Under the pieces are notes generated by a model, which was not told the origin of the DNA, made no database searches, and saw only the letters and a program-made list of their open reading frames with translations. A DNA stretch of 64,000 nt from Alphaproteobacteria bacterium (GTDB taxonomy: Bacteria > Pseudomonadota > Alphaproteobacteria > Caulobacterales > Aquidulcibacteraceae). Position 1 is the stretch's first letter, and the number at the start of each line of letters is the position of its first letter. The stretch lies in contig JAUIJZ010000005.1 in assembly GCA_030430715.1 (NCBI GenBank), forward strand, positions 1-64,000, written 5' to 3'. A program made the position numbers and the translations under genes. This document shows positions 6,389 to 29,171 of the stretch, one piece after another.

Positions 6389-7951
6389 ATGACCTCTGTT
6401 GATAAGGCCATACATTGGGACCCCTACAATCCTGCCTATTTCAACAATCCGCACCCCGTGTTCACACGCCTGCGCGAAGAGGCCCCCGTTTATTACAACG
6501 AGGAGTATGATTTTTACACGATCAGCCGGTACGAGGACGTGCAGGCAGGCTTGGCAGATTACCGCACCTTCAGCTCCAGCCGCGGCGATATTCTCGAGTT
6601 CATCAAGGCCAACAATCCTGTTCCCCCTGGCGTGTTCATCATGATGGACCCTCCGGTCCACACAGCATATCGCAGTCCGCTGACCCGATTTTTTACGCCA
6701 AAGAGGGTCGCATCGCTTGAACCGCAAATTCGCGATTTCTGCGCCAAATCACTGGATCCATTGATTGAGAGCGGTGAATTTAACTTCATCGAGAACCTCG
6801 GCAAAGAAATGCCGATGCGTGTCATCGGCATGCTGCTTGGCGTGCCGGAAGAAGACCTGAAAACCGTACAAAGCGATGCCGACGCCAAGCTTACAACGGA
6901 AGCTGGCAAGCCAATGGATCTCACAGAGCACACCTTCGTCGGCGCTGGCTTCGAAGATTACATCGACTGGCGCATGAAGAACCCGTCCGATGACGGCATG
7001 ACGGAGATGCTGAACCTCGAGTTCAAGGATGAGACCGGCGCTGTGCGCAAGCTGACGCGCGACGAAGTTGTCATTATTTGCAGCATGCTCGGCGCCGCCG
7101 GCAATGAAACCACCAACCGTTTGATTGGCTGGACCGGCAAAGTGCTTGCCGAGCACCCCGATCAACGCCGTCAAATCTACGAAAACCGAGCCCTGATTCC
7201 GCAAGCGATTGAGGAAATTCTTCGCTACGAACCTCCGGGCCCATCCGTGGCGCGCTACGTAGCCAAAGATGTTGAACTGCACGGTGTAAAAATTCCAGAA
7301 GGCAGCTCCGTTTGCATGCTTGTCGCCGCCGCAAACCGCGATGGACGCAAATTCGCCAATCCGAACAAATTCGACATTCAGCGCGAGCGTTTGCCTCACC
7401 TTACTTTCGGCCAGGGTTTTCACGCCTGCCTGGGCAATGCCTTGGCGCGCATTGAAGGCCGTATCGCCCTCGATGAAGTGCTAAACCGCTTCCCGGACTG
7501 GGAAGTCGACCTCGACAACGCCTATCTAACCTCGACCTCAACCGTGCGCGGCTGGGAGACGCTTCCGGCCTACACGTCAAAGGCAAAGCGGCGTCCGGGC
7601 GGCAAAAAAGCGGCGCAAGCCGCGCCGCAAGCCAACACACCCGCCCCCATTCCCGGCGCGGAAAGCTGGAAGCTCACGATGAAAACACCGATGGGCCCTC
7701 AAGAAATGACGGCCCATCTTGTACGGAAAGGCGACGCCTTAACCGGCCGGCTCGACAGCCCACAAGGCTCCGAAAGCATCAGCCATGGCAAGATTTCTGG
7801 AAATACTTTGACGTGGACCGTGTCGGTCACGAAGCCCGCCCCGATGCAATTGGGTTTCGAGGTACAAATCAACGACAATGCCCTCGCGGGCCACGCCAAA
7901 TTGGGCGCGTTCGGCAAGGCCGATATCGTCGGCGAACGCATTTCCTCTTGA
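6389..7951 (+). CDS. Cytochrome P450 with C-terminal beta-rich extension
   Basis: The product is 520 residues, versus about 400-420 for a soluble bacterial P450. The P450 fold is complete: I-helix GAAGNETT (235-242), ExxR (E276/R279), and heme-binding FGQGFHACLG with thiolate C347. P450s insert one oxygen atom into a C-H or similar bond using two electrons from a ferredoxin. After a Lys/Ala/Pro linker (about 397-423) comes a roughly 95-residue domain containing TPMGPQEM, GDALTGRLDSPQG, GNTLTWTV and KLGAFGKADIVGER. This looks like a small beta-barrel seen in no ordinary P450. A strong AGGAAGGA site precedes the ATG. The ferredoxin gene follows by 82 bases and is the likely redox partner. The substrate is unknown. 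Confidence 0.93.
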   Translation: MTSVDKAIHWDPYNPAYFNNPHPVFTRLREEAPVYYNEEYDFYTISRYEDVQAGLADYRTFSSSRGDILEFIKANNPVPPGVFIMMDPPVHTAYRSPLTRFFTPKRVASLEPQIRDFCAKSLDPLIESGEFNFIENLGKEMPMRVIGMLLGVPEEDLKTVQSDADAKLTTEAGKPMDLTEHTFVGAGFEDYIDWRMKNPSDDGMTEMLNLEFKDETGAVRKLTRDEVVIICSMLGAAGNETTNRLIGWTGKVLAEHPDQRRQIYENRALIPQAIEEILRYEPPGPSVARYVAKDVELHGVKIPEGSSVCMLVAAANRDGRKFANPNKFDIQRERLPHLTFGQGFHACLGNALARIEGRIALDEVLNRFPDWEVDLDNAYLTSTSTVRGWETLPAYTSKAKRRPGGKKAAQAAPQANTPAPIPGAESWKLTMKTPMGPQEMTAHLVRKGDALTGRLDSPQGSESISHGKISGNTLTWTVSVTKPAPMQLGFEVQINDNALAGHAKLGAFGKADIVGERISS

Positions 7952-8033
7952 TCCGCCTAAAGCGCGAGGCTGACGCCCGGAACATCACCTGCGCGCCCGC
8001 CGATCGCCGCCATCAGTGAGAGTATAACCAGAC

Positions 8034-8354
8034 ATGCCCAAAATCACCTTCATCGAAAGCGACGGCCGCGAGCACGAGATCGAAGCTCAGACTGGCGCCT
8101 CAGTCATGGAAATGGCCCGAGCACACAACGTTCCTGGGCTAGACGCCGATTGCGGCGGGGGCTGCTCATGCGGCACATGCCACGTCTATGTCAGACCCGA
8201 ATGGCGCACGCATATCGGCGAGCCAAACGAGTTTGAAGTCGCCACTTTAGAGTTCGCTGTCGACGTCGAGGCAAACAGCCGGCTCTCTTGCCAAATCAAA
8301 ATTACCGACCAACTTGACGGCTTGGTTGTCACGCTGCCCGCAAGCCAACGATAA
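8034..8354 (+). CDS. [2Fe-2S] ferredoxin, adrenodoxin/putidaredoxin type
   Basis: The product is 106 residues with the vertebrate-type/putidaredoxin cysteine pattern: C40-x5-C46-x2-C49 and a fourth ligand at C86 (RLSCQ). The surrounding sequence (VPGLDADCGGGCSCGTCHVYV) is characteristic of electron donors to class I P450s. One extra cysteine, C44, lies inside the cluster loop. It lies just downstream of the P450 on the same strand, so electron transfer to that enzyme is the natural inference. No dedicated ferredoxin reductase is adjacent. Confidence 0.95.
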   Translation: MPKITFIESDGREHEIEAQTGASVMEMARAHNVPGLDADCGGGCSCGTCHVYVRPEWRTHIGEPNEFEVATLEFAVDVEANSRLSCQIKITDQLDGLVVTLPASQR

Positions 8355-8467
8355 GTTTGGGCGAATGGGGCTCGTTCCCCGACGCCGACCGGGGTCAGCG
8401 GCGCTTGGCCGCATTTTCTCCACAGCGCTAGTGCGTGACATGTGCGGTGAACCAAAGGGGATTTCAG

Positions 8468-8959
8468 ATGCGCAAACTTCCGATCGCGCCTATGGCCGCT
8501 CTACTTCTGGCGCTTGCCGCTTGCGGCCCGACCGAAAGCCCCTCCTCAAGCTCTGCCCCGCAAACACCGGCAGCGCCCTCCACGCCCGCACCTGACGTAG
8601 CTGAATTGCAGGCGCGTGTTGCGTCGCTTCCGGCGCCGTATGACGCCGCCGATTATGAAGCTGGACGTCGCGTGTTTGCGCAGTGCCGTTCCTGCCACAC
8701 GACCGATGCCGGCGGCGGCAATCGCGTCGGACCCAACCTGCATGGCGTATTCGGCCGTGAGATTGGGACACAAGACGGCTTCGCCTACTCGCAACCTGTG
8801 CAAGAAGCGGATTTTGTCTGGGATGCCGATCAACTCGATGACTGGCTCGCGAACCCACAAACGTTTTTGCCTGGCAACCGCATGGCATTCGCTGGTGTGC
8901 GGAACGACGAACAGCGCCGTGACGTGATCGCTTATTTGCTGGTCGAAACCGCCGACTAA
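8468..8959 (+). CDS. Lipoprotein cytochrome c (class I, c2/c-552 like)
   Basis: The product is 163 residues. A signal sequence ends in the lipobox LALAAC (C19), predicting a lipid-anchored periplasmic protein. A low-complexity Ser/Ala/Pro spacer follows (about 20-45). Heme is bound by CRSCH (73-77), and a distal methionine lies in GNRMAF (M139). The GPNLHGVFGREIG block is typical of soluble c-type cytochromes that shuttle electrons to terminal oxidases. I place the start at ATG 8468, which has AAAGGGGA upstream and begins a sensible signal peptide; the open frame reaches 8435. It converges with the RND permease (4-base gap). Confidence 0.9.
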   Translation: MRKLPIAPMAALLLALAACGPTESPSSSSAPQTPAAPSTPAPDVAELQARVASLPAPYDAADYEAGRRVFAQCRSCHTTDAGGGNRVGPNLHGVFGREIGTQDGFAYSQPVQEADFVWDADQLDDWLANPQTFLPGNRMAFAGVRNDEQRRDVIAYLLVETAD

Positions 8960-8963
8960 TTCG

Positions 8964-11900
8964 TCACTCGGCGGGCCGCGTCAGCGCTTCTTTCTGTTCG
9001 TAAGATTCGATCTCAAGCGCCGTCGCCTCGGGTGACTTCGTGTAGCGCGCGAGCAGATCGTAGAAGATCGGCACCACGAACAACGTCATCAGCGTCGCAA
9101 TTGATAGCCCGAAAAAGATGACGACGCCGATCGTCAATCGGCTCTCGGCGCCGGCGCCATGCCCTATGATAAGCGGCACAACACCGATCACTGTTGCGAT
9201 TGATGTCATCAATACAGGACGCAAACGTAAATCCGCCGCCTCTAAAATAGCGTCTCGGATTGACTGTCCCTCATCGCGCAACTGATTGGCGAACTCCACA
9301 ATCAGGATGCCGTTCTTCGCCGCGAGTGCGATCAGAATGATCAAACCGATCTGGCTATAAATGTTGAGCGTCTGATCGAACACAAACAGTCCGAACAAGC
9401 CGCCGGCAACCGCCAAAGGAACGGCGAGCATAATAACAAAGGGATGCACGAAGCTTTCGAACTGCGCGGCCAACACGAGGAAAACGATTAGCAGGGCGAA
9501 ACCAAAAGCGAATACGATGGCCCCGCTCGCTTGCTGAAATTGGCGCGCCGCACCCGTATACGCGATTTGAATTGGCAGATTGCCGATCTCAGCACGCGCA
9601 ATTTCCTCGAGTTCCTGAATTGCATCGCCAATCGCGTAGTCGCCAGCGGTCGATGTGCCGATTGTAATAGCGGCCTGCCGGGTCATCCGACGTCGTTCAG
9701 AGGTGTCGCCTTCGGTTCGCAAGCTTACGACTGTCGACAGCGGGACCAGCTCACCCGTCCTATCCGAACGAACATATTTATTGGAGAGATCGCTCACATT
9801 GGAACGCTCATCTCGTTCGGCCTGTAGATAGACGTAATATTCTTCGCCATGGTCGGTGATCGTATTCACACGCCGCTGGCCCATTGTCGCTTCCAGCGTC
9901 CGGCCGATCGCTTGAACGGAAATACCAAGCGCAGCCGCGCGCTCTCGATCAATGTCCACCAGTACGCGAGGTGAGGTCGGCTGATAGTCCATGCGTGGAC
10001 GCATGAAGATGGGGTTTTCCGCCACTCTCGCCACGATGCGCTCGGCGACGGGCGCCAGCTGCTCGTAGGTTGCGCCAAGCAGAACAATCGATGCGCCGTC
10101 GCCACCACGTTGCGCCAATGGGCTGATCGAGCGCGCCCGTATCGTTGCACCTGGAATTTGCGAGAAACGCTGGTTCAACTCCGTTTCGATTTCAGCCGCG
10201 CTACGGTGGCGATCTTCCCAATTGGCAAGTCCTGCACGCGCCATACCGGAATTGAAACCGCTGCCGCCGAAGCCAGGTACGGAAAGCATGATTGAGCTCA
10301 TCTCGCCGCTTTCCACATATTCGAGAAGTATTTGCTCAGCCTCCCCCATCACCCGGCTCATGTATTCATAGCCAGCACCCTCGGGGCCATTGCCGAAAAC
10401 AATCATCTGCCCACGATCTTCTGAGGGCGTGAGCTCAGAAGAGAGCTGCGTAAAGATGATTCCGCCGAGCACAATCACGGCGCCGAAGCCGGCAAAGACC
10501 ATAGGCTTCGCCTGCATCGCAGCTTCCAGAGACGCGCGATATGAGGCGCGCAGTTTCGCAAGCAATTTGTCCACGAACCGGGAAAGCCGCGTGCTCGTCT
10601 TTACGGACTTGACCAGCTTGGAACACATCATGGGTGACAGCGACAACGCGCAAAACGCTGAAATCACGATCACGCCCGCAATTGTTGCGGCCAATTCGAC
10701 AAACAGCCGCCCAACATAGCCGCCGACAAAGAGAAGTGGCGCAAAGACAGCCACAAGCACGGCCGAGGTGGCGATAATGGCGAAGAAGACCTGTCGGCTG
10801 CCGCGTTCAGCCGCCACGAGAGGCGGCTCACCATACGTGTCCACGCGACGCTGCACGTTCTCCAGAACGATAATAGAATCGTCAACGACCAGCCCGATCG
10901 CAAGCACAAGCGCCATCAGGGTCAAAAGGTTGATCGAGAACCCGAAAACAGAGAGCACGAGAAAAGCGCCGATCATGCACACAGGGATGACCGCCGTTGG
11001 GATCAACGCCGCTCGCCAAGACCCCAGGAACAAATAGATCACCGCAACAACGAGCAGCGTACATTCGAGCAGAACCTGCCACACGCGTTCGATAGCCCGT
11101 TCGATAAAGAGCGTGGAATCGAACAGCAGGACCATTTCCACGCCTGGCGGCAACTCGGCCTCGATACGGGCCATCTCCGCCTTAACCGCCTCGGACACGT
11201 CCAATGCATTCGAGCGCGATTGCCGGACGACGCCCAGACCAACCTGATCGACGCCATTGCCGCGGAAAATACGCCGGGTTTCATCCGGCGCGATTTCCAC
11301 CCGCGCCACATCACCCAAACGCACGACAGCCGCGTTAACATCGCTTGCCGGGCGCAACGGCAGGCGTTCGAATTGTTCTGGCGTCTCAAATGCGCGCGTC
11401 ACGCGCACCTGATAATCTCGCTCCTGACTCTCAACCGTCCCAGCCGGCAACTCAACATTCTGCGAGCGCAGAGCGTTTTCAACGTCTTGCACCGTCATCC
11501 CACGCGCGGCGAGCGCGTTCGTGTCGAGCCATATCCGTAATGCGCGGCGAACGCCTCCGAACTGAACACTGGCGACACCGTCCAAAACCGAAACCCGATC
11601 GACGATGTAGCGGTCGATATAATCGCTGAGCTCAAGGCGGCTCATCGTGGCCGAGCGCAACGCGTACCACATGATTGGATCTGCGTCGGCGTCGGCTTTG
11701 CTGATGACCGGATCGGTGATGTCAGCCGGCAAACGCCCTCGCGCACGATCAACGGCGTTGCGAACATCGTTCGCTGCGTCTTCCAAATCGCGATCCAGCG
11801 TAAATTCAATCGATACTGAGGATCGACCATCCCTACTTGTGGAGCGAATGAGGTCGATGCCTTCAATGCCTGACAATTGGTCTTCGATCACCTTCGTGAT

Positions 11901-20978: not shown

Positions 20979-22202
20979 TCAAAAGAACGCCAAGTCCGTC
21001 AAATTAAGCCCCATGTGGATGGCCCGATATTCGGCGGCAAGGAAAAGCCCCCCCGCGACATAGATCGCCTGCTGTCCGCGTTCCATAATCGCTATCTGCC
21101 GCGCATCCGCCACCGAATTTGCAATCAAAACCTCAGCCGCGGGATTTGACTCTGCCGCATAGGCCGCGACCTCGTCTGCAGGCGCGCCCTTATGGTGAGC
21201 AGAGGCGCAAATGATGCGGTCGAAGCCCGGCGCTAACGCTGAAATGATCCCGCACACGTCCTTGTCGCGTGATGCGCCGCAGACCAACACGCCACGCCGC
21301 CCGCCCTGCATTGCGCGGAAGCCCTCTAACGACGCCTTAATCGCCGCAGGCGTGTGGCCGACATCGATAACGGTGAGCGGATCATGCTCGATAACCTCCA
21401 GCCTTCCAGGCCACTGCGCCCCGGCGAAAGCGGCCTCGACCTGCGCATCGCTCAAGGGACAAACGTCGCGCACCAGCGCGAGCGCTAATGCAGCGTTCTC
21501 CTGCTGATGCCGGCCGGCAAAGGGCGCACGAACATCCGCAAGCGCCGCCCCGTCCACCAGTATCGGCTCTACGCCGTGTCCGCCGCAATGCGCTTTAATG
21601 GCGTTCCATTGGCCGCGACATGAGGCGCCAATAAAAACACGTGCACCGCGCGGCGCCGCATCGAGCTTGTCTTGCGCGATCGCCTCCAGCGTGTCGCCAA
21701 GTAATTGCGTGTGCTCAAGATCTAGCGACGTCAGCGCTAAGCGTTTCGCCTGGATTAAACGTACGGGATCGAATCTGCCGCCGATCCCCGCTTCCCAAAC
21801 AGTATGCACACACTCACGCGCTGCGAACCACGATGCAGCGATCAAAAAGAGAAATTCAAAGCCGCCAATCTTTTCCGATAAATTGAGCGCATCGATCGCC
21901 CGCTTGACGCGCCTCCAATGTGTATCGAGCTCTGAGTCTGAAATTGCCGCGCCATCGATGACAAAACGCTCATTCAGCGCAAAAAGGTGCGGCGATGTAA
22001 ACAAACCCGTAGGTCGCCCGCTCTGACGCAACAACGCTGCGCTCATCGCCGCCGTTGAGCCCTTGCCATTAGAGCCGACCACAACAGCACCATGCTTGCC
22101 AAAGGTCGCGAGATTGACGCCCAGGTGCGCCGATAGCGCTTCAAGACGCGGAAAGCTCGGCCCATCGCCAAACTTCGGATACGGCACACGCCACATCTTC
22201 AC
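20979..22202 (-). CDS. Mur-ligase-family protein, folylpolyglutamate synthase (FolC)-like
   Basis: The product is 407 residues. The ATP-binding motif VVVGSNGKGSTAAM, the TGLFTSPHL segment, WEAGIGGRFDPV, LDLEHTQLLGDTLEAIAQDK and the C-terminal VIDVGHTPAAIKASLEG all belong to the FolC branch of Mur ligases. These join an amino acid to a carboxylate with ATP. It overlaps the ATP-grasp gene by 4 bases (GTGA) and has no folate or trp/accD neighbours, unlike housekeeping folC in this class. A specialised ligase acting with the ATP-grasp partner is therefore as likely as true folate synthesis. The start is GTG 22202; an in-frame ATG lies two codons later. Confidence 0.8.
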   Translation of the reverse strand: MKMWRVPYPKFGDGPSFPRLEALSAHLGVNLATFGKHGAVVVGSNGKGSTAAMSAALLRQSGRPTGLFTSPHLFALNERFVIDGAAISDSELDTHWRRVKRAIDALNLSEKIGGFEFLFLIAASWFAARECVHTVWEAGIGGRFDPVRLIQAKRLALTSLDLEHTQLLGDTLEAIAQDKLDAAPRGARVFIGASCRGQWNAIKAHCGGHGVEPILVDGAALADVRAPFAGRHQQENAALALALVRDVCPLSDAQVEAAFAGAQWPGRLEVIEHDPLTVIDVGHTPAAIKASLEGFRAMQGGRRGVLVCGASRDKDVCGIISALAPGFDRIICASAHHKGAPADEVAAYAAESNPAAEVLIANSVADARQIAIMERGQQAIYVAGGLFLAAEYRAIHMGLNLTDLAFF

Positions 22203-23161
22203 TTCAACGCAGATTCAAAATTAGCGCGCCAGATTGTTGTGATCAGATCCCAACGTCCGCCGTCTTCGAGCGTCTGAATCATCGGGTTTGAATTCACTTC
22301 GATCACAGTCAGCTCGCTAAGATCGCCCTGCGGAGAAAGGTCGAAAATATCGACGCCCGCAAGCGAAAGGCCAATCGCGTTTACCGCCGCGCGCGCAATC
22401 TGCGCCAATGGCTCGGGCGAGCCTTCGCGCAAGTCCGTCGCGCCGCCGCCGGCGGCGCGGTTGGCAGGCCCCTCCAATATGATGCGCGCGCCAAACGCCG
22501 GCCTATCGTGCATTGCCAACAACGAGCCTGCACTATCGCGCGCGCGCGTCTGCGCCGGCACTGTATCGCGCGGCAAAGCCGCCAAGAGCTCCTTCAGCGT
22601 GCTACGCCCGTCACCGGCTAGGCACGGCAATTCCTTCCGATAACAGAACAGCGCCTCACCGTTCAGCATGAAGACACGATGCTCAACGCCGCGCAGAAAC
22701 GGTTGAACCAGAATTGCGAAATGCTCGCGTGATACCCGGCAGAGATAATCCTCAAACGCATCACAATCGGCGATCACTTCAGCAAACAGCCCGTTCGAAC
22801 CCGATATAGGTTTGCAAAAGAGCGGATAATCCGCCGCCGCTGCATACGCTCGCGCATCCGCCGGCTCGCGGCCCGGCGAACGCATTTCCGCCCAGCGTTC
22901 CGTCACAAAAAACATGCGCCCCGGCACACAGGGCACGCCCGCCGCTTCCATGGCCTTGGCGCAAAATGCCTTGTCACGCGCCAGCGATGCCGCGCGGGCG
23001 TCGTTCAACGCGTATGGAACTCCGGCGCCCGCTGCAAATAATGCGCGGCGGCGGCCATCTTTGACCTCGAACAAATAGCCGTCGGCGCCATCTAGGGAGC
23101 GGAATACGTATCCGCATTGCGCAGCAGCGTGCGCGGCGTAGCGCGCGTGAGCGCTAAGAAT
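22199..23161 (-). CDS. ATP-grasp ligase, cyanophycin-synthetase-like, apparent AUU start
   Basis: The product is 320 residues from the proposed start. ATP-grasp features are LARDKAFCAKAMEAAGVP, LFCKPISGSNG, VQPFLRGVEHRVFMLNGEA, GDGRSTLKELL and the metal-binding VIEVNSNPMIQ. The HRVFMLNGE...GDGRST pattern recalls the ATP-grasp domain of cyanophycin synthetase. Conserved-looking sequence continues upstream of the first canonical start (TTG 23074). The frame is open to 23221 but holds no ATG, GTG or TTG. A strong AGGAGG (23169-23174) lies 7 bases before ATT 23159-23161, giving ILSAHARYAAHAAAQCGYVF. I therefore propose an AUU start. The product and substrate are unknown. Confidence 0.78.
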   Translation of the reverse strand: MLSAHARYAAHAAAQCGYVFRSLDGADGYLFEVKDGRRRALFAAGAGVPYALNDARAASLARDKAFCAKAMEAAGVPCVPGRMFFVTERWAEMRSPGREPADARAYAAAADYPLFCKPISGSNGLFAEVIADCDAFEDYLCRVSREHFAILVQPFLRGVEHRVFMLNGEALFCYRKELPCLAGDGRSTLKELLAALPRDTVPAQTRARDSAGSLLAMHDRPAFGARIILEGPANRAAGGGATDLREGSPEPLAQIARAAVNAIGLSLAGVDIFDLSPQGDLSELTVIEVNSNPMIQTLEDGGRWDLITTIWRANFESALK

Positions 23162-23260
23162 GACGCCGCCTCCTACCGCCTGAGCAGCGCGGCCAATATG
23201 CAGGGGAGCGCAACAATCCGTTCAAAATCAAACGCCCCGACCGGCATTCCCAATTGCACA

Positions 23261-23337
23261 TGGTACCGCCTCCCGGGCTCGAACCGGGGACCTCTGGATC
23301 CACAATCCAGCGCTCTAACCAACTGAGCTAAGGCGGC
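23261..23337 (-). tRNA. tRNA-His (anticodon GUG), lacking G-1
   Basis: The reverse strand gives a 77-base cloverleaf: acceptor GCCGCCT, D-arm AGCTCAGTTGGTTAGAGC, anticodon stem CTGGA/TCCAG, and loop TTGTGGA with anticodon GTG. The T-arm carries GGTTCGAGCC, and the end is AGGCGGT-A-CCA. The first pair is G1-U72 and the discriminator is A73. There is no extra G opposite the discriminator, unlike most bacterial tRNA-His. This is the known aberrant alphaproteobacterial form. Confidence 0.96.
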
Positions 23338-23419: not shown

Positions 23420-23449
23420 ACCGAAATGCTACCCTTGGTTGCATTCGGT
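23420..23449 (+). promoter_or_regulatory. Imperfect inverted repeat abutting the ligase ribosome-binding site
   Basis: ACCGAAATGC (23420-23429) and GCATTCGGT (23441-23449) form near-complementary arms around 11 bases. The right arm ends directly at the AGGAGG (23450-23455) of the ANL ligase gene. It may be an operator, or an RNA hairpin that affects translation. No known regulator motif is recognised. Confidence 0.35.
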
Positions 23450-23460
23450 AGGAGGCGCGC

Positions 23461-24816
23461 ATGCGCGATCAGTTAGGTGCATATTGGCTGAGATTGGAGC
23501 AAGGCGGCAGCCGTCTCGCCATAATAGACGGCGTCACAGGCCAATCTCTCAGCTACCGCGCCCTAGCCGACGCGTCCGACGCAGTCGCAGAAGCCCACTA
23601 CCGTACGAGCAAAAAAGCGCTGGTATTCCTGGCAGCCCACACTGATCTGGTCGGCATAACCCATTTCCTCGGCGCCCTACGCGCTGGACATGCAGTCCAC
23701 TTGCTCAACCCCGCCCTGTCAGCCGAGCGCCAAGCACAACTCGCCGCAATTTACCGGCCCGCTTTTAGAACCAACACAACAGAGAATGGCTATCAGACAC
23801 TGGCCTGCCCCGCGCCCTGCGCCAGCGTGCATCCAGATCTCGCGCTCCTCCTCTCGACGTCAGGCTCCACCGGCAGCGCCAAACTTGTGCGCCTCTCCGC
23901 CACAAATTTAACCGTCAACGCTCAGCAGATCGTGAAAGCGCTCAGCATAGATGAGAACGCGCGCGCTTATCTCAACTTGCCTCTTTCCTACACTTACGGG
24001 CTTTCGGTGTTGGCCAGTCATTTGGCGCAGCACGCATCTGTTCTCGCACACTCGGGTTCCTTCCTAGATGCGCGAACGTGGGAATTGGTGCGCCGACACG
24101 ATTGCAATTTTCTCCACGGCGTACCGAAGAGCTACGAACTCTTGCGCCTCGTTTGTGAGAAAGGATTACAATTGCCGCAGATCACAGCGTGCGCACAATC
24201 GGGCGGGCGTCTCGCGCCTGATCTGGCACGCTGGCTTATGCGCGGCCTCAATGATCGCATACGCGTCTACAAAATGTATGGCATTACCGAAGCCACCGCG
24301 CGCGTGGCCGTCCTTCCAGCGGACTTGCTCGCAGACAATCTCGAAAGCGTCGGCCTCGCTGTTTCAGGTAGTCAGTTCGAGTTGGGTCCGGAAGATGAAC
24401 TCATCTATCGCGGGCCCAATGTCATGATGGGCTACGCCACAGATGCGGCCGGACTCGCTCGCGGAGATGACCTAGGCGGCGTCCTGCACACCGGCGACAT
24501 CGGCCATATGAATGAAAACGGATTGATTTATTTAAGGGGACGACGGGACCGCATCTGCAAAGTCGATGGCGTTCGGATCAATTTGGATGAGCTGGAAAGC
24601 CGCTTCTTTTCGGATGTCCCCATCGCCGCTCTCTATATTGGAAACGCCATTCGGCTCTGCCACGAGAACGCAAGCAACACCGTTCGCGCGCGCTTAACGG
24701 CGCTTGCACGCACGCTTTCCATATCTCCGGCACACCTTGATTGCCGAGATGTCGGTGAATTGCCACGCTTGCCGAACGGCAAGCTGGATATGGCCGCGTT
24801 GCAACGAATCGCGTGA
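23461..24816 (+). CDS. ANL-superfamily acyl-CoA synthetase/adenylation enzyme
   Basis: The product is 451 residues, short for the family but with all core motifs: P-loop STSGSTGSAK, LPLSYTYGLSV, MYGITEATAR, HTGDIGH, GRRDRICKVDGVRINLDELES (hinge) and PNGKLD with the catalytic lysine. These enzymes activate a carboxylate as acyl-AMP and load it onto CoA or a carrier protein. AGGAGG lies 5 bases before the ATG. It converges with an acyl-carrier-protein gene 14 bases away, whose operon also encodes an SDR and a condensation domain. Loading of that carrier is the natural inference. The substrate is unknown. Confidence 0.9.
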   Translation: MRDQLGAYWLRLEQGGSRLAIIDGVTGQSLSYRALADASDAVAEAHYRTSKKALVFLAAHTDLVGITHFLGALRAGHAVHLLNPALSAERQAQLAAIYRPAFRTNTTENGYQTLACPAPCASVHPDLALLLSTSGSTGSAKLVRLSATNLTVNAQQIVKALSIDENARAYLNLPLSYTYGLSVLASHLAQHASVLAHSGSFLDARTWELVRRHDCNFLHGVPKSYELLRLVCEKGLQLPQITACAQSGGRLAPDLARWLMRGLNDRIRVYKMYGITEATARVAVLPADLLADNLESVGLAVSGSQFELGPEDELIYRGPNVMMGYATDAAGLARGDDLGGVLHTGDIGHMNENGLIYLRGRRDRICKVDGVRINLDELESRFFSDVPIAALYIGNAIRLCHENASNTVRARLTALARTLSISPAHLDCRDVGELPRLPNGKLDMAALQRIA

Positions 24817-24830
24817 AGTGAGCCCAGGCG

Positions 24831-25079
24831 CTAAGTTGCAGCGCTGGCCTGCTCTACGCCCAATCGGCCGCTCAGAATTACTGAAAGCGAACGTAAAGTT
24901 GGGCTTTCATAAATGTCGCCCGCGTCGAGCACGACAGCGAAACGTTCCTCGATACGCATTACAAGCATCATAACGGCAACGGAATCCGCGCCTAATCCGA
25001 AGAAATTGTCATCGGCGCCGACGGATTTTTGGCTCAATATTTCCGTCCACATCTCTGCAAGCTCTTGTTCGATTTTCAT
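24831..25079 (-). CDS. Acyl/peptidyl carrier protein
   Basis: The product is 82 residues. The phosphopantetheine attachment motif FGLGADSVAVM (S33) is intact within a four-helix carrier-protein pattern. It is clearly different from housekeeping AcpP (no DSLD motif) and resembles PCP/ACP domains of NRPS/PKS systems. It is the last gene of a three-gene operon after the SDR (15 bases) and the condensation-domain protein. It probably holds the acyl or aminoacyl intermediate. Confidence 0.93.
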   Translation of the reverse strand: MKIEQELAEMWTEILSQKSVGADDNFFGLGADSVAVMMLVMRIEERFAVVLDAGDIYESPTLRSLSVILSGRLGVEQASAAT

Positions 25080-25094
25080 CTATCGCCCCCCCAA

Positions 25095-25868
25095 TCAAGT
25101 CAGCAGCAAACCGCCATCTACGACCATCTCCGTTCCAGTGACGTAGGAGGCATCGTCAGAAACAAGCCATACCGCGGCTCCAGCAATTTCAGCAGGCCGT
25201 CCCACACGGCGCATAGGGATCGCACCCGACACCCTTTGCGCTGAATTCTCTCCCCACGCCCGCCGCAGCATCGGCGTCATCACCGCGCCAGGCATCACGG
25301 TGTTTATGCGGATATTGTTTGCTGCATTCTCGAGCGCCGCAGAGCGCGCAAGCCGCACGACTCCCGCCTTAGCCGCAGAATATTCCGCCCCCTGCGCGAT
25401 CGCCCGGTCGGCGCCAGTCGATGAAATCAATACAATTGAGCCGCCTTGTTCGCGCATCGCCTTGATCTGATATTTCAGACAAAAGAACATGCCGCGTAGA
25501 TTTAGCGCGCACCGCTTGTCCCATTCCTCAGCGCTTAATTCGTGGATCGGTGATCCCGCCGGCATTGTACCTGCGCAATTGATCGCGGCATCAAGCCGGC
25601 CAAACACTTCAATGCTTTTGTCAACGAGACGCTCGACAGCCGCTTCCTCGGTAATGTCGGCGGAGATAAACCGCGCACGCTCGTGCCGCGCTAATGTGTG
25701 TTCCGTCCATTTTACTTCATCGCGGCCCGCAACGGAAACCTTGCAGCCCGCAGCCAAGAGCCTCTCGACACAAGCCAAACCAATGCCGCTTGTGCCTCCG
25801 GTTACAATGACGACTTTGCCGGATAAACCGACCGGAGTCGTCACATCAGCGAGATCAGTCACGCACAA
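25095..25868 (-). CDS. SDR-family oxidoreductase (3-oxoacyl-ACP reductase-like)
   Basis: The product is 257 residues. The cofactor loop VTGGTSGIG (about residues 23-31), NCAG, the active-site Ser in LISSTGA, Tyr-Lys in YSAAKAG and the C-terminal VDGGLLLT define a classical SDR. Such enzymes reduce or oxidise a carbonyl/hydroxyl with NAD(P)H. It overlaps the condensation-domain gene by 14 bases, and the carrier-protein gene follows. Within the cluster it may reduce a carrier-bound intermediate. Confidence 0.93.
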   Translation of the reverse strand: MCVTDLADVTTPVGLSGKVVIVTGGTSGIGLACVERLLAAGCKVSVAGRDEVKWTEHTLARHERARFISADITEEAAVERLVDKSIEVFGRLDAAINCAGTMPAGSPIHELSAEEWDKRCALNLRGMFFCLKYQIKAMREQGGSIVLISSTGADRAIAQGAEYSAAKAGVVRLARSAALENAANNIRINTVMPGAVMTPMLRRAWGENSAQRVSGAIPMRRVGRPAEIAGAAVWLVSDDASYVTGTEMVVDGGLLLT

Positions 25869-27165
25869 CCTCCGCCAATTCCTGACAAAAGGCGCTTACA
25901 AATCTCGCTGCATTCGCTTCATCGCACGCGCCGGTCGAAAACCTCATCATGCCGCGAAGCTTCGCGCCATCACAACGGATTGAAAAATAGTGCGCGAGAT
26001 GCTCGTTCGGCCCGAGCGGTCTTTCCGGCAGAGAAAACGATGGCAAATATTGCGCGCCATCCGGCATCACAAATTTGCGCTCATAGATGAAATTGAAACT
26101 TGGGCCGACCACGGGCTTTTCCCGCCCCCACAATCGCGTCGGACTGAGCGCATGGCGTTTGTTCAGCGCCATAATTCCGCGCAAGCGATCCGCAGTCGCT
26201 TGCACCTTCTCGCCTTTTTCCACGCGCAAACGCACTGGCATTGGATCTGAAAGATTTCCAACCATATGCCGAAGCGCGCCCCGATCCCTTCGATCATCGA
26301 CAACCAGAACCCAGAATTCATCCTGATCCACGAAGCTGCGCAGCACGCGAAATTTCGCAGCAAGCAAGAGCATGACTAGAGTCACGCCCAGACGCGCGGC
26401 GAGCCTTTTTAATTCTGTGGTCAGCTGATGCGGGACGGCAAAACCGATCTCCCGGCGGTAGTGCGGCGTATCGAGTGCGTTTTTCTTAGGCTTGGGGAGC
26501 AAGGTCGTTGGCGCGCCTTCCCAAACACCATCCCAATAATATTCGGATTCCCTGCCAACTCGGGACTGCCCCCAACGCGCAAGTGCAGAAGCATAATAAG
26601 GATAGGCAAGCGTCTGCGGCGCTATGCACACAGGGGCCTGCCCAGAGCAATAATCAGCGAGGAACTGCTCTTTCAGAATACTGAGCGATACGAAGTCACC
26701 AACGAAATGATGCAGAACGAAGCATACAAAGTGCTTGTGCGTTGATCGACTGACGCAGAACAGCCTGAAAAAGCGCTCCTGCTCGATATCAAACGGCTGC
26801 CAGATCAATTCGCGCACGCGGTCCAACGCGGCGTCACGATCCGCATTGAGAACTTCGCACCGGAGCTTGATATCCGTAGGCGCGCCGAAACAAAAAGCGG
26901 GGCCGTCTTCCGTTTCCCGCACCTGCGCCGCCAAGATGGGATGCCGCGCAGCAGCGGCAACACCGCACGCCGCGACCCGTTCAAAATCCAAGTCACCGCT
27001 GATTGCCAGAATAGCGTGCGTTGCGTTCGCAACCTCTGGATAGGCGAAGGCGCCCTGCATGTAACGCCAAGCGGGCCGCACGAAATGCGCCATAGGCGCT
27101 ATGACTCCGTCGCACGGCGAATGCCTTTCTTCATCGGCAAGAAAGTCACTAAAGCTGCTCGTCAC
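25855..27165 (-). CDS. Stand-alone condensation-domain protein (NRPS C-domain-like)
   Basis: The product is 436 residues, the size of a single condensation domain. The motif LHHFVGDF (H152, H153, D157) is the HHxxxD active site. Supporting motifs are RHPILAAQV near the N-terminus, the IWQPFDIEQERFFRL segment, and MVGNLSDPMPVRLRV in the place of the usual VGxFVNTLPLR. Such domains join an acyl/aminoacyl carrier thioester to an amine or alcohol. The start is GTG 27165, and the ribosome-binding site is weak. It heads the C-SDR-ACP operon and is divergent from an MFS gene. No adenylation or thioesterase domain is fused. Confidence 0.85.
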   Translation of the reverse strand: MTSSFSDFLADEERHSPCDGVIAPMAHFVRPAWRYMQGAFAYPEVANATHAILAISGDLDFERVAACGVAAAARHPILAAQVRETEDGPAFCFGAPTDIKLRCEVLNADRDAALDRVRELIWQPFDIEQERFFRLFCVSRSTHKHFVCFVLHHFVGDFVSLSILKEQFLADYCSGQAPVCIAPQTLAYPYYASALARWGQSRVGRESEYYWDGVWEGAPTTLLPKPKKNALDTPHYRREIGFAVPHQLTTELKRLAARLGVTLVMLLLAAKFRVLRSFVDQDEFWVLVVDDRRDRGALRHMVGNLSDPMPVRLRVEKGEKVQATADRLRGIMALNKRHALSPTRLWGREKPVVGPSFNFIYERKFVMPDGAQYLPSFSLPERPLGPNEHLAHYFSIRCDGAKLRGMMRFSTGACDEANAARFVSAFCQELAEVVRD

Positions 27166-27348
27166 CGTGAAATCCGCTCATCACTTGTTGCGTGTTTCGG
27201 CTCGCCCAAACCACCCTTGCGTGCATTCGCTAGCATAACAATCTTTAGTTGCATAGCCGCTGCTTTGCAGCCATAAGCGGTCACGCAAATTCCTGCCTTA
27301 ACTCTGCTTGTTCGCCGCCCTCGGCAGTCGGCGGGCGACGAGGTCCGC

Positions 27349-28680
27349 ATGACTTCTTCCACTCCGTTCCCTGCTCCAGCGACACCAGGGGGCGCCCCAG
27401 GTCCTGCCGGCCGGTGGCAAGCAGCGCCCCCGTCGGAACTGCACGCGGCAGCTTTCAAAGGCCGAGAGATCGCCTGGATGGTGCTCGCCAATTTCGGTGT
27501 CTCGATGGCTTACATTATGCCGTTGGTTTACTCGCTGGCGCTCCGCATCGACGAACTCGCGCCGGGTCGACCAGAATTGCTCGGCTACATGACAGGCGCA
27601 GCGCAACTGACCTACCTCGTGGCCAGCCCGCTCATCGGCGCATGGAGCGATCGCACGCGTTCGCGTCTCGGCCGGCGGCGCCCTTTTATGATCGGCGGCT
27701 TGGCTATGGGCGTGATTGCGCTCCTCGCCCTCGCCACCGCCTCAACCATTCCCATGACTGGTGCGGCATGGATTGCGGCAATGCTCGGCTTTACGACTGT
27801 CTCAACATCAATCGTCGCGCTTCAAACGGATCGATTGACTGACAATCAGCGCGCTAAAGTCTCCGGCTTCACAGCGATCTCAAGTCAATTGGCCCCGGTC
27901 ATTGGTTTGGCTGCGCTTGCAAATCATACAGACAATACACTGCTGATCATTCTTATGCCGGGCGTGGTCGGCGTCGTTTGCTCACTTCCATTCCTGATCC
28001 TTGGAAAGGATATGGACTCACGCAATCTTGCGCGCCGTGACAGCACCTTTTCGCTGCCAGATCTCGCCGCTAATTATGCCATCAGTCCACGCGCGCATCC
28101 CGATTTCGCCTGGAATTGGTTGGGCAGATTGTTCTTCTTTCTTGGCCTCTACGCCAATACGACATTTCTGGCGTTTCTCTATGCGGAGCGCCTGGGTATC
28201 GACATCCGAGAAGTCGCGGGCGTGACAGCCATGATCGCGTTTGCTGGCGTCCTTGCCGCCTCACTTGGCGCCTTAGCGGGCGGATTGCTTTCGGATTTTT
28301 TGCGAAGGCGAAAAATTTTTGTTCTTGCCGCGTCGGCGATCTTCGCGACGGGCGCAACGGTCGATGCTTTTGCCTCCACACTCACGGCTTTCCTTATCGG
28401 CGGCGTTCTGATGCAGCTTGCGCTCGCTGTCTTCGCCGCTGTGGACCAGGCCATTGTCATGGCCACACTGCCGGACCGCGCACACATAGGGCGTTACTTG
28501 GCCATAGCCACATTTTCTCAAAAGATTCCGAGCGGGCTTGCCCCACTACTCGCCCCGTTACTGCTTGCCATCGGCGCCGGAAGCGGCGTGAACAATTACG
28601 CTCTGCTTTATCTGACCGGCGGCGCGTTCGCACTTATTGGCGGCGCGATCGTGGTGCTGAAAGTAAAAACCGTGCGCTAG
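27349..28680 (+). CDS. MFS transporter
   Basis: The product is 443 residues with about 12 predicted membrane helices after a Pro/Ala-rich N-terminal tail. The MFS loop 2-3 signature is present as GAWSDRTRSRLGRRRPFMIGG, split by hydrophobic helices on each side, and a second occurrence is GLLSDFLRRRKIFVL in the C-terminal half. This form resembles sugar-cation symporter/SLC45-type MFS proteins. It is divergent from the condensation-domain operon and could export its product, but a nutrient uptake role fits as well. Its stop overlaps the glutathione peroxidase stop in CTAG. The 27166-27348 spacer shows no gene. Confidence 0.92.
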   Translation: MTSSTPFPAPATPGGAPGPAGRWQAAPPSELHAAAFKGREIAWMVLANFGVSMAYIMPLVYSLALRIDELAPGRPELLGYMTGAAQLTYLVASPLIGAWSDRTRSRLGRRRPFMIGGLAMGVIALLALATASTIPMTGAAWIAAMLGFTTVSTSIVALQTDRLTDNQRAKVSGFTAISSQLAPVIGLAALANHTDNTLLIILMPGVVGVVCSLPFLILGKDMDSRNLARRDSTFSLPDLAANYAISPRAHPDFAWNWLGRLFFFLGLYANTTFLAFLYAERLGIDIREVAGVTAMIAFAGVLAASLGALAGGLLSDFLRRRKIFVLAASAIFATGATVDAFASTLTAFLIGGVLMQLALAVFAAVDQAIVMATLPDRAHIGRYLAIATFSQKIPSGLAPLLAPLLLAIGAGSGVNNYALLYLTGGAFALIGGAIVVLKVKTVR

Positions 28681-29171
28681 ACAGCTTTTTGTTCGAGCGC
28701 CTTCTCGATTTTATCCGCCAATGATTCAGGCTTGGCGGCGGGTCCGAAGCGAGCCAACACGCGTCCGTCGCGCCCCACCAGGAATTTAGTGAAGTTCCAT
28801 TTCACTCTACGCGTACCAAGCATACCGCGCTTGGCGGCCGTGAGATACTTGTAGACCGGATGCGCCGCACGACCGTTGACATCAACCTTGGCGAACATCG
28901 GAAAACTCACATCATAGGTGAGCGAACAAAATTTCTTGATCTCGTCCGCATCGCCCGGCTCCTGAGCGCCGAACTGATTGCAAGGAAAGCCCAAAACCTC
29001 CAAGCCGCGTTCGGCGTATTTGCGCGCCAGCGCTTCTAGGCCGCGATATTGCGGCGTGAAACCACACTTGCTCGCGGTGTTCACGATCAGCAGCACTTTA
29101 CCGCGATAGGATTCAAGCGACTGGTCGTGGCCATCAATGTCTCGTGCCGAAAACTCGTAGATTTGCGCCAT
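28677..29171 (-). CDS. Glutathione peroxidase (BtuE/Gpx family)
   Basis: The product is 164 residues. The active-site motif VNTASKCGFTPQY carries Cys in the place of selenocysteine, followed by GFPCNQFGAQEPG with the conserved Gln, and WNFTKFLV with Trp-Asn. It reduces hydrogen peroxide and lipid hydroperoxides, usually with thioredoxin as reductant in bacteria. It is cytoplasmic with no signal peptide. The gene converges on the MFS gene. Confidence 0.95.
   Translation of the reverse strand: MAQIYEFSARDIDGHDQSLESYRGKVLLIVNTASKCGFTPQYRGLEALARKYAERGLEVLGFPCNQFGAQEPGDADEIKKFCSLTYDVSFPMFAKVDVNGRAAHPVYKYLTAAKRGMLGTRRVKWNFTKFLVGRDGRVLARFGPAAKPESLADKIEKALEQKAV

Follow-up and report, generated by a model that had tools for sequence, protein, structure and literature searches.

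The closest described systems are the fatty-acid amide (FAA/Oaa) clusters of gut Clostridia, in which adenylation, carrier and condensation (C) functions are encoded as the discrete proteins OaaA, OaaACP and OaaC (PMC13142362). In that report, a lone C protein joins an acyl group on an acyl carrier protein (ACP) to a free amine, the discrete set of three proteins suffices for amide formation, and such minimal pathways in the gut can yield signalling molecules; the C proteins carry a (D/H)HxxxD motif followed by Ser (42%), Ala (36%) or Gly (17%). In polyamine siderophore biosynthesis, the amide synthases VibH, SchH and PhbG likewise act as stand-alone C proteins on free amines (PMC7962358). Two further papers place ACP, reductase, ANL ligase, LuxE and LuxC gene types in the flagellin glycosylation islands of Aeromonas (FGI group II; PMC7874193) and a LuxE/LuxC-ANL module in flagellin glycosylation of Enterobacteriaceae (PMC4875605). 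The locus described here lies at 23420–28680 of a 64,000-nucleotide stretch (the window) of contig JAUIJZ010000005.1, from an alphaproteobacterial draft assembly (GCA_030430715.1; 3.24 Mb, 172 contigs, rated 98.8% complete). It encodes an ANL acid ligase, a peptidyl carrier protein (PCP)-type carrier, a short-chain dehydrogenase/reductase (SDR), a free-standing C protein of the nonribosomal peptide synthetase (NRPS) type and a major facilitator superfamily (MFS) transporter. We favour, by a modest degree of confidence, a discrete (type II) NRPS-like acyl-conjugation pathway to which all five genes belong.

The five adjacent genes had been proposed in an initial annotation of the DNA, and all five open reading frames are open, with Pfam scores far beyond chance. 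The ANL ligase (23461–24816, plus strand) is a compact stand-alone protein of 451 aa (AMP-binding, 2.1e-33). It is followed on the minus strand by the stand-alone carrier (24831–25079, 82 aa; PP-binding, 6e-15), the SDR (25095–25868, 257 aa, TTG start; adh_short_C2, 2.7e-62) and the C protein (25855–27165, 436 aa, GTG start; Condensation, 3.5e-28). The MFS transporter, a possible exporter, is encoded on the plus strand (27349–28680, 443 aa; MFS_1, 1e-24). The motifs named in the annotation are all present, with STSGSTGSAK in the ANL ligase, LGADS in the carrier, YSAAK (for YxxxK) in the SDR and HHFVGD (for HHxxxD) in the C protein. The genes form three transcription units. C, SDR and carrier genes are read in that order, with a 14-bp overlap between C and SDR and a 15-bp gap between SDR and carrier; the ANL gene converges on the carrier gene at a distance of 14 bp, and the MFS gene diverges from the C gene across 183 bp. 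The stated lack of a thioesterase, a second carrier and a large NRPS module agrees with the Pfam scan of five flanking frames, none of which contains any of these.

The single pathway is proposed because of the protein families and their motifs, the overlapping and abutting C-SDR-carrier genes, the island that the five genes share, the dedicated carriers of the ANL family and the presence of one carrier only, as in the FAA systems. In the predicted order of steps, the ANL ligase would adenylate a carboxylic acid, which is unlikely to be an α-amino acid, and load it onto the 4′-phosphopantetheine of the neighbouring carrier. The C protein would then pass the acyl group on to an amine or alcohol that diffuses freely; a small amide or ester would result, with no thioesterase involved. 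The SDR is predicted to reduce or oxidise either the acid, the acyl group bound to the carrier or the product, and the MFS transporter to export the product. Discrete sets of this kind, which activate, carry and condense, are small enough for quick expression and testing.

Like the FAA clusters, the window encodes separate adenylation, carrier and condensation proteins together, with one carrier in the frames scanned, to which this count refers, and one PF00668 match in the assembly. The three proteins include no thioesterase, and the residue following HHxxxD is not glycine. The C protein differs in its HHFVGDF stretch, which keeps both His residues and the Asp but continues with Phe, as compared to mostly Ser or Ala in the FAA proteins. 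The window ligase belongs to the family found in LuxE/LuxC modules, and the SDR and MFS genes lie alongside. No OaaC-named sequence occurs among the solved-structure matches of the C protein. The likeness to VibH lies in a C protein that stands alone and is predicted, in the window, to couple an acyl group with a free amine; the ANL ligase and SDR of the window, however, are not best matched to the catechol type, and no other siderophore genes were recognised. By analogy, it is reasonable to infer that the window proteins may work like the FAA and VibH proteins. With the flagellin-glycosylation module the window shares SDR and carrier neighbours and, in a tree that leaves a grouping with the fusions described below unrejected, an ANL ligase on the same side; it differs in having no LuxE or LuxC neighbours, a carrier of the NRPS-PCP type and a C protein instead. 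The modules in our loci were equated with those of the papers by gene names and order, not by sequence. Fusions of ANL ligase, carrier and an acyltransferase-3-like part (about 830–930 aa; for example, L051, L076 and L085) contain the same ANL family and presumably also load an acid onto the carrier and pass it to a transferase, but they are single polypeptides with the acyltransferase-3-like part and no C protein. In contrast to modular NRPSs, the window C protein consists of 436 residues with one Pfam domain and is not part of a multidomain C-A-PCP protein.

The ANL ligase has no separate Pfam match for the C-terminal domain, and LPRLPNGKLD is kept at its end. Its best solved relatives are 3wvn, MenE and oxalate-CoA ligase. 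We take 3wvn to be VinN, a 3-methylaspartate ligase, whose pocket Asp presumably holds the amino group of the substrate. In the pocket stretch, the window ligase has Thr in place of this Asp, and in an alignment of 18 rows the position is occupied by Ser, Thr, Cys, Ala or Val, never by an acidic residue. Because of this replacement, an ordinary amino acid bound in the customary manner is unlikely to be the acid that is activated. The acyl-amino acid-like product of the initial annotation is thus too specific, since the ligase does not have the Asp of its amino-acid-activating relative and nothing identifies the acceptor.

Relatives of the ANL ligase were found in 3 of 60 other related genomes (E 1e-25), in 10 of 384 other genomes of the class (E 1e-35; one shared with the former set) and in 101 plasmid records (E 1e-20). 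Of the loci found, twenty were read (identities 30–42%): every one of the 12 from genomes, and 8 from among the 101 plasmid records. LuxE is present in nine, eight of which also have LuxC; a separate ACP occurs in eight of these nine LuxE-type loci, and the ninth ends at a contig edge. In the other 11 loci, the ligase is fused to a carrier and to an acyltransferase-3-like part. The carrier segment is recognised in all 11 by similarity and in 7 by Pfam PP-binding; Pfam Acyl_transf_3 matches 8, 4 of them over its cut-off, while the fusions of L085, L086 and L091, which have no such match, were assigned by similarity to L076. Overall, the family has an adjoining or fused carrier in 19 of the 20 loci, which links it to carrier-dependent acyl-transfer systems. 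A protein matching the window SDR is present in five of the nine LuxE-type loci (in four it adjoins the ANL ligase or its ACP) and in 1 of the 11 fusion loci, where the match is weak (24%). The best-matching relative, from Nonomuraea (42% identity), has the gene order ACP-SDR-ANL-LuxE-LuxC. In a tree of 21 rows, a branch with support of 98/97 separates the window ligase and the nine LuxE-type rows from the others; the window branch is long, and a topology that joins the window ligase to the fusions is not rejected (p-AU 0.076). On both chromosomes and plasmids, members of the family lie next to LuxE/LuxC or form part of acyltransferase fusions, and the acid used by the window ligase would inform those systems.

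It is conceivable, though we hold the idea tentatively and would not favour it, that the locus is a rewired module of the ACP-SDR-ANL-LuxE-LuxC type, which elsewhere presumably makes an aldehyde. LuxE and LuxC would have given way to a free-standing C protein, of which this is the single case so far, and a PCP-type carrier; discrete synthesis of amides or esters would then have arisen independently of the FAA and VibH lineages.

Two other features were seen among these loci. At L079 (4223–11522), an ACP-ANL-LuxE-LuxC module adjoins a thiamine-diphosphate enzyme and, as judged by eye, NeuB-like and FabZ-like proteins; this module perhaps makes an aldehyde for an unusual sugar. The ANL-carrier-acyltransferase-like fusions of L084, L085 and L086, on Mycolicibacterium/Rhodococcus plasmids, are located beside iron ABC transporter genes.

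The C protein is the sole PF00668 match (E 1e-3) in the whole assembly. Its best matches in the solved-structure set are NRPS C domains (31 matches to E = 10), and its two NCBIfam matches are led by the NRPS model PRK05691 (54.6 bits, far below cut-off). In an alignment with 15 NRPS C domains, the first His and the Asp of HHxxxD never vary, and 15 of the 16 rows, including that of the window protein, retain the second His (153). Counting the protein itself, matches were obtained in 7 of 61 relatives (E 1e-5), 16 of 385 genomes of the class (E 1e-10) and 13 of 398 genomes of the phylum (E 1e-16); among 60 genomes of the family only the protein itself was matched (E 1e-12). These genome sets overlap, and the class surveys (C protein and ANL ligase) and the phylum survey (C protein) scored at most four candidates per genome, such that matches may be missed. 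The surveys of relatives, class, family and phylum revealed nothing close to the C protein. The other matches listed lie in frames of at least 1116 aa, of NRPS size, with 23–32% identity, apart from one case at a contig end. In nine loci inspected for starter-type C domains, the top match is located at the start of the frame in three and more than 1100 residues into it in six. Of 72,556 plasmid records 248 were matched, each at less than 60% identity (27% for the best-ranked), and viral contigs gave no match.

Three candidates for relatives of the C protein were rejected. A scan of the contigs of 84,980 species gave 29 stretches that matched a pattern, with one confirmed; the frame in question (L092) carries a DUF772 transposase domain and was set aside as a chance match. 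The scan depends on an exact match with any of six 8-residue stretches; its negative outcome thus applies to close relatives only. A 477-aa frame in G685 appeared to be a lone C protein, but the contig has 8043 bases and its end cuts the frame. The C domain of L081, on a Mesorhizobium plasmid, is not free, as it shares one frame with other pieces. This frame (7710–10523) combines an NRPS C domain, an apparent short adenylation piece and a part whose annotation is lysine 2,3-aminomutase, and it adjoins panD and an ATP-grasp gene.

In the carrier, the serine expected to bear phosphopantetheine lies in LGADS. The best solved relatives are NRPS carrier domains of LgrA and PvdL, and the best model is AusA. 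The PRK05691 model matches the carrier at 587–654 and the C protein at 701–971, both far below cut-off. With PvdL also ranking high among the solved structures related to the carrier, the two proteins resemble a carrier-then-C unit. The carrier has no match at E 1e-3 in the 20 loci of ANL relatives, the ACPs of the modules included. An AGRD-like stretch following the glycine motif of an SDR suggests NADP(H). The window SDR has AGRD at this position and is probably of the NADPH type, as judged from the cofactor loop. It passes the cut-off of a broad glucose-1-dehydrogenase subfamily model (rank 1), and the solved structures closest to it are a mixed set of SDRs. Identities to five module SDRs are 28–37% versus 26–30% to six other SDRs of the genus; the comparison consists of identities only. 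The MFS transporter has no solved relative at E 0.01.

Several observations weigh against a single pathway. No C-like frame was seen in any of the 20 loci of ANL relatives (E 1e-3), and the ANL gene, convergent with the C operon, lies outside it. The five-gene set was found in no other genome searched, so no second genome shows the genes travelling together. With no relative carrying the C protein found, the comparison for scattering of the genes, which the initial annotation had named as a refuting condition, covers the relatives of the ANL ligase, and these occur without C in 20 of the 20 loci read. A search of the assembly with PF01648 revealed no Sfp-type enzyme to prime a PCP-type carrier; the sole match is a 146-aa frame, which by its length looks AcpS-like. 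The Phe that follows the HHxxxD Asp replaces the usual Gly and recurs in one other aligned row (L093), and structure prediction of the C protein from its single sequence was unusable (mean pLDDT 36.9). The stand-alone-enzyme pathway of the initial annotation therefore stands in part: activation, carrying and condensation are still the best reading by comparison with the discrete A/ACP/C systems (PMC13142362), but the relatives of the ANL ligase occur without C.

The same evidence bears on a division of the locus into two unrelated pieces. One would be a C-SDR-carrier operon supplied with its acyl group from another source, such as acyl-ACP or CoA of the host; the other would be the ANL ligase (and the MFS transporter), acting in a different pathway, for instance surface-glycan acylation. 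The opposite strand of the ANL gene, its position on the LuxE side of the tree and the relatives without C are all consistent with such a division, as are the LuxE/LuxC modules of the flagellin glycosylation islands and those that lie, by eye, beside sugar-type genes in several loci. The assembly itself holds a full-length LuxC-family gene on another contig (G000:C123:18748–19950, L125; 179 bits). This gene, however, has no recognised ANL-family neighbour, the frame upstream of it has no Pfam match, and the LuxC model also matches in 9 of 14 control genomes. Neither LuxE nor LuxC was found beside the window ligase. The ligase relatives almost always have a carrier of their own, and the locus has no carrier other than that of the PCP type; the five genes moreover share the island and have similar codon usage. 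We regard unrelated pieces as unlikely, though deserving of serious consideration. That the locus is non-functional or misassembled, through transfer of a fragment that encodes no working pathway or through a false join in the assembly, we hold to be highly improbable: the single occurrence in the searched sets, the draft state of the assembly, the position at a break of conserved gene order and the unseen Sfp-type transferase would fit, but the five frames are open with intact catalytic motifs, the overlapping and abutting gene ends are kept, and the contig continues through both conserved flanks.

Two further alternatives concern the chemistry. Formation of an ester instead of an amide, by a C protein acting like PapA5 or ester-forming C domains on a hydroxylated lipid or sugar, is suggested by the second NCBIfam match of the C protein, the PapA5-family model (9.6e-5), and by the fusion of the ANL family elsewhere to acyltransferase-3-like domains. 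The PapA5 score of 21 bits is far from its cut-off of 396, whereas the NRPS model scores higher, although it too falls far short of its cut-off, and the best solved matches are NRPS C domains; an ester of this kind is improbable. A vibriobactin-like catechol-amide siderophore of the EntA/EntE/EntB/VibH type has similar parts (SDR, ANL ligase, carrier and free C protein, VibH-type synthases being stand-alone). The SDR, which we take as the counterpart of EntA, would make dihydroxybenzoate (DHB), the ANL ligase, taken as that of EntE, would load it, and the C protein would join it to a polyamine. We give this route very little credence. No VibH-named chain is among the 31 solved-structure matches of the C protein (E ≤ 10; the presence of the chain in the set was unchecked). 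The 2,3-DHB ligases are not the best solved relatives of the ANL ligase and appear only lower in the list, with EntE-type chains at the foot of the 60 matches shown and none among the 57 of a profile search (1e-30). Among the 25 models shown for the SDR, that of 2,3-dihydro-2,3-DHB dehydrogenase is in 22nd place and does not reach its cut-off. Inspection of the window frames by eye, with no search aimed at such genes, revealed neither an isochorismate nor a receptor gene.

The single acyl-conjugation pathway thus remains our preferred reading. The gene set is real, looks intact and is rare in the searched sets; its general kind is known, and on this evidence it does not constitute a new class of system. 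The exact combination, which the initial annotation could not assign to any recognised cluster, was indeed unmatched in our searches, but the kind of chemistry is known from Oaa/FAA and VibH. Among the open-access papers listed for stand-alone C domains, LuxE/LuxC-ANL modules, FAA clusters and ANL-acyltransferase fusions, none describes the combination in its title or abstract, which is not proof of absence, as subscription papers are mostly outside this literature. A defence-system library gave no match for the locus.

The five genes sit where two conserved chromosomal neighbourhoods meet, with a tRNA-His gene (23261–23337) on one side and a glutathione-peroxidase gene (28677–29171) on the other. 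On the left, the ATP-grasp gene (22199–23074) is matched in 24 of 29 same-genus genomes (E 1e-20) and in 26 of 61 in the relatives' set, including one genome of another genus and its own, and tRNA-His is located near it in all seven relatives' loci examined. On the right, radA lies within about 4 kb of the glutathione-peroxidase gene in nine of nine same-genus loci, as in the window. In these nine loci (greedy gene calls, one best match shown per frame), no frame has the window ATP-grasp or FolC-like protein as its best match, and matches to the five island genes are only remote (SDR 26–30%; ANL 26%, once). Codon-adaptation-like values are 0.57–0.61 for the five genes and 0.62–0.78 for ten flanking genes; six of the ten served as the reference and the other four score 0.62–0.71. 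The gap is small, the lowest neighbour (0.622) being close to the island genes. The position at the neighbourhood break and the lower codon adaptation make acquisition of the island from elsewhere a fair inference. Within the genus, the C protein is matched in 3 of 29 genomes (E 1e-5), always inside a frame of 1891–2693 aa, the ANL family in 1 of 29 (E 1e-25), as an acyltransferase-3 fusion, and the MFS transporter in none of 29 (E 1e-20). C, ANL and MFS are accessory genes in the genus; the counts cover these three.

The 183-bp region between the C and MFS genes (27166–27348) is a probable control region. It contains, as candidate elements, a weak direct repeat (27188–27205 and 27217–27234, 72%) and the heptamer TTGCGTG twice, with its inverse at 27282–27288. 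Promoter and terminator scans showed no excess over shuffled sequences, and no promoter match falls in this region.

Beyond the tRNA-His gene, an ATP-grasp and FolC/Mur-ligase-like pair (20979–23074, minus strand) matches the two parts of cyanophycin synthetase. The listed TTG start of the ATP-grasp gene (region 22199–23180, minus strand) is probably internal. The frame is open upstream as far as a stop at 23222–23224, without ATG, GTG or TTG, and the frames of three relatives begin earlier with similar residues. An ATT codon preceded by AGGAGG may be the true start.

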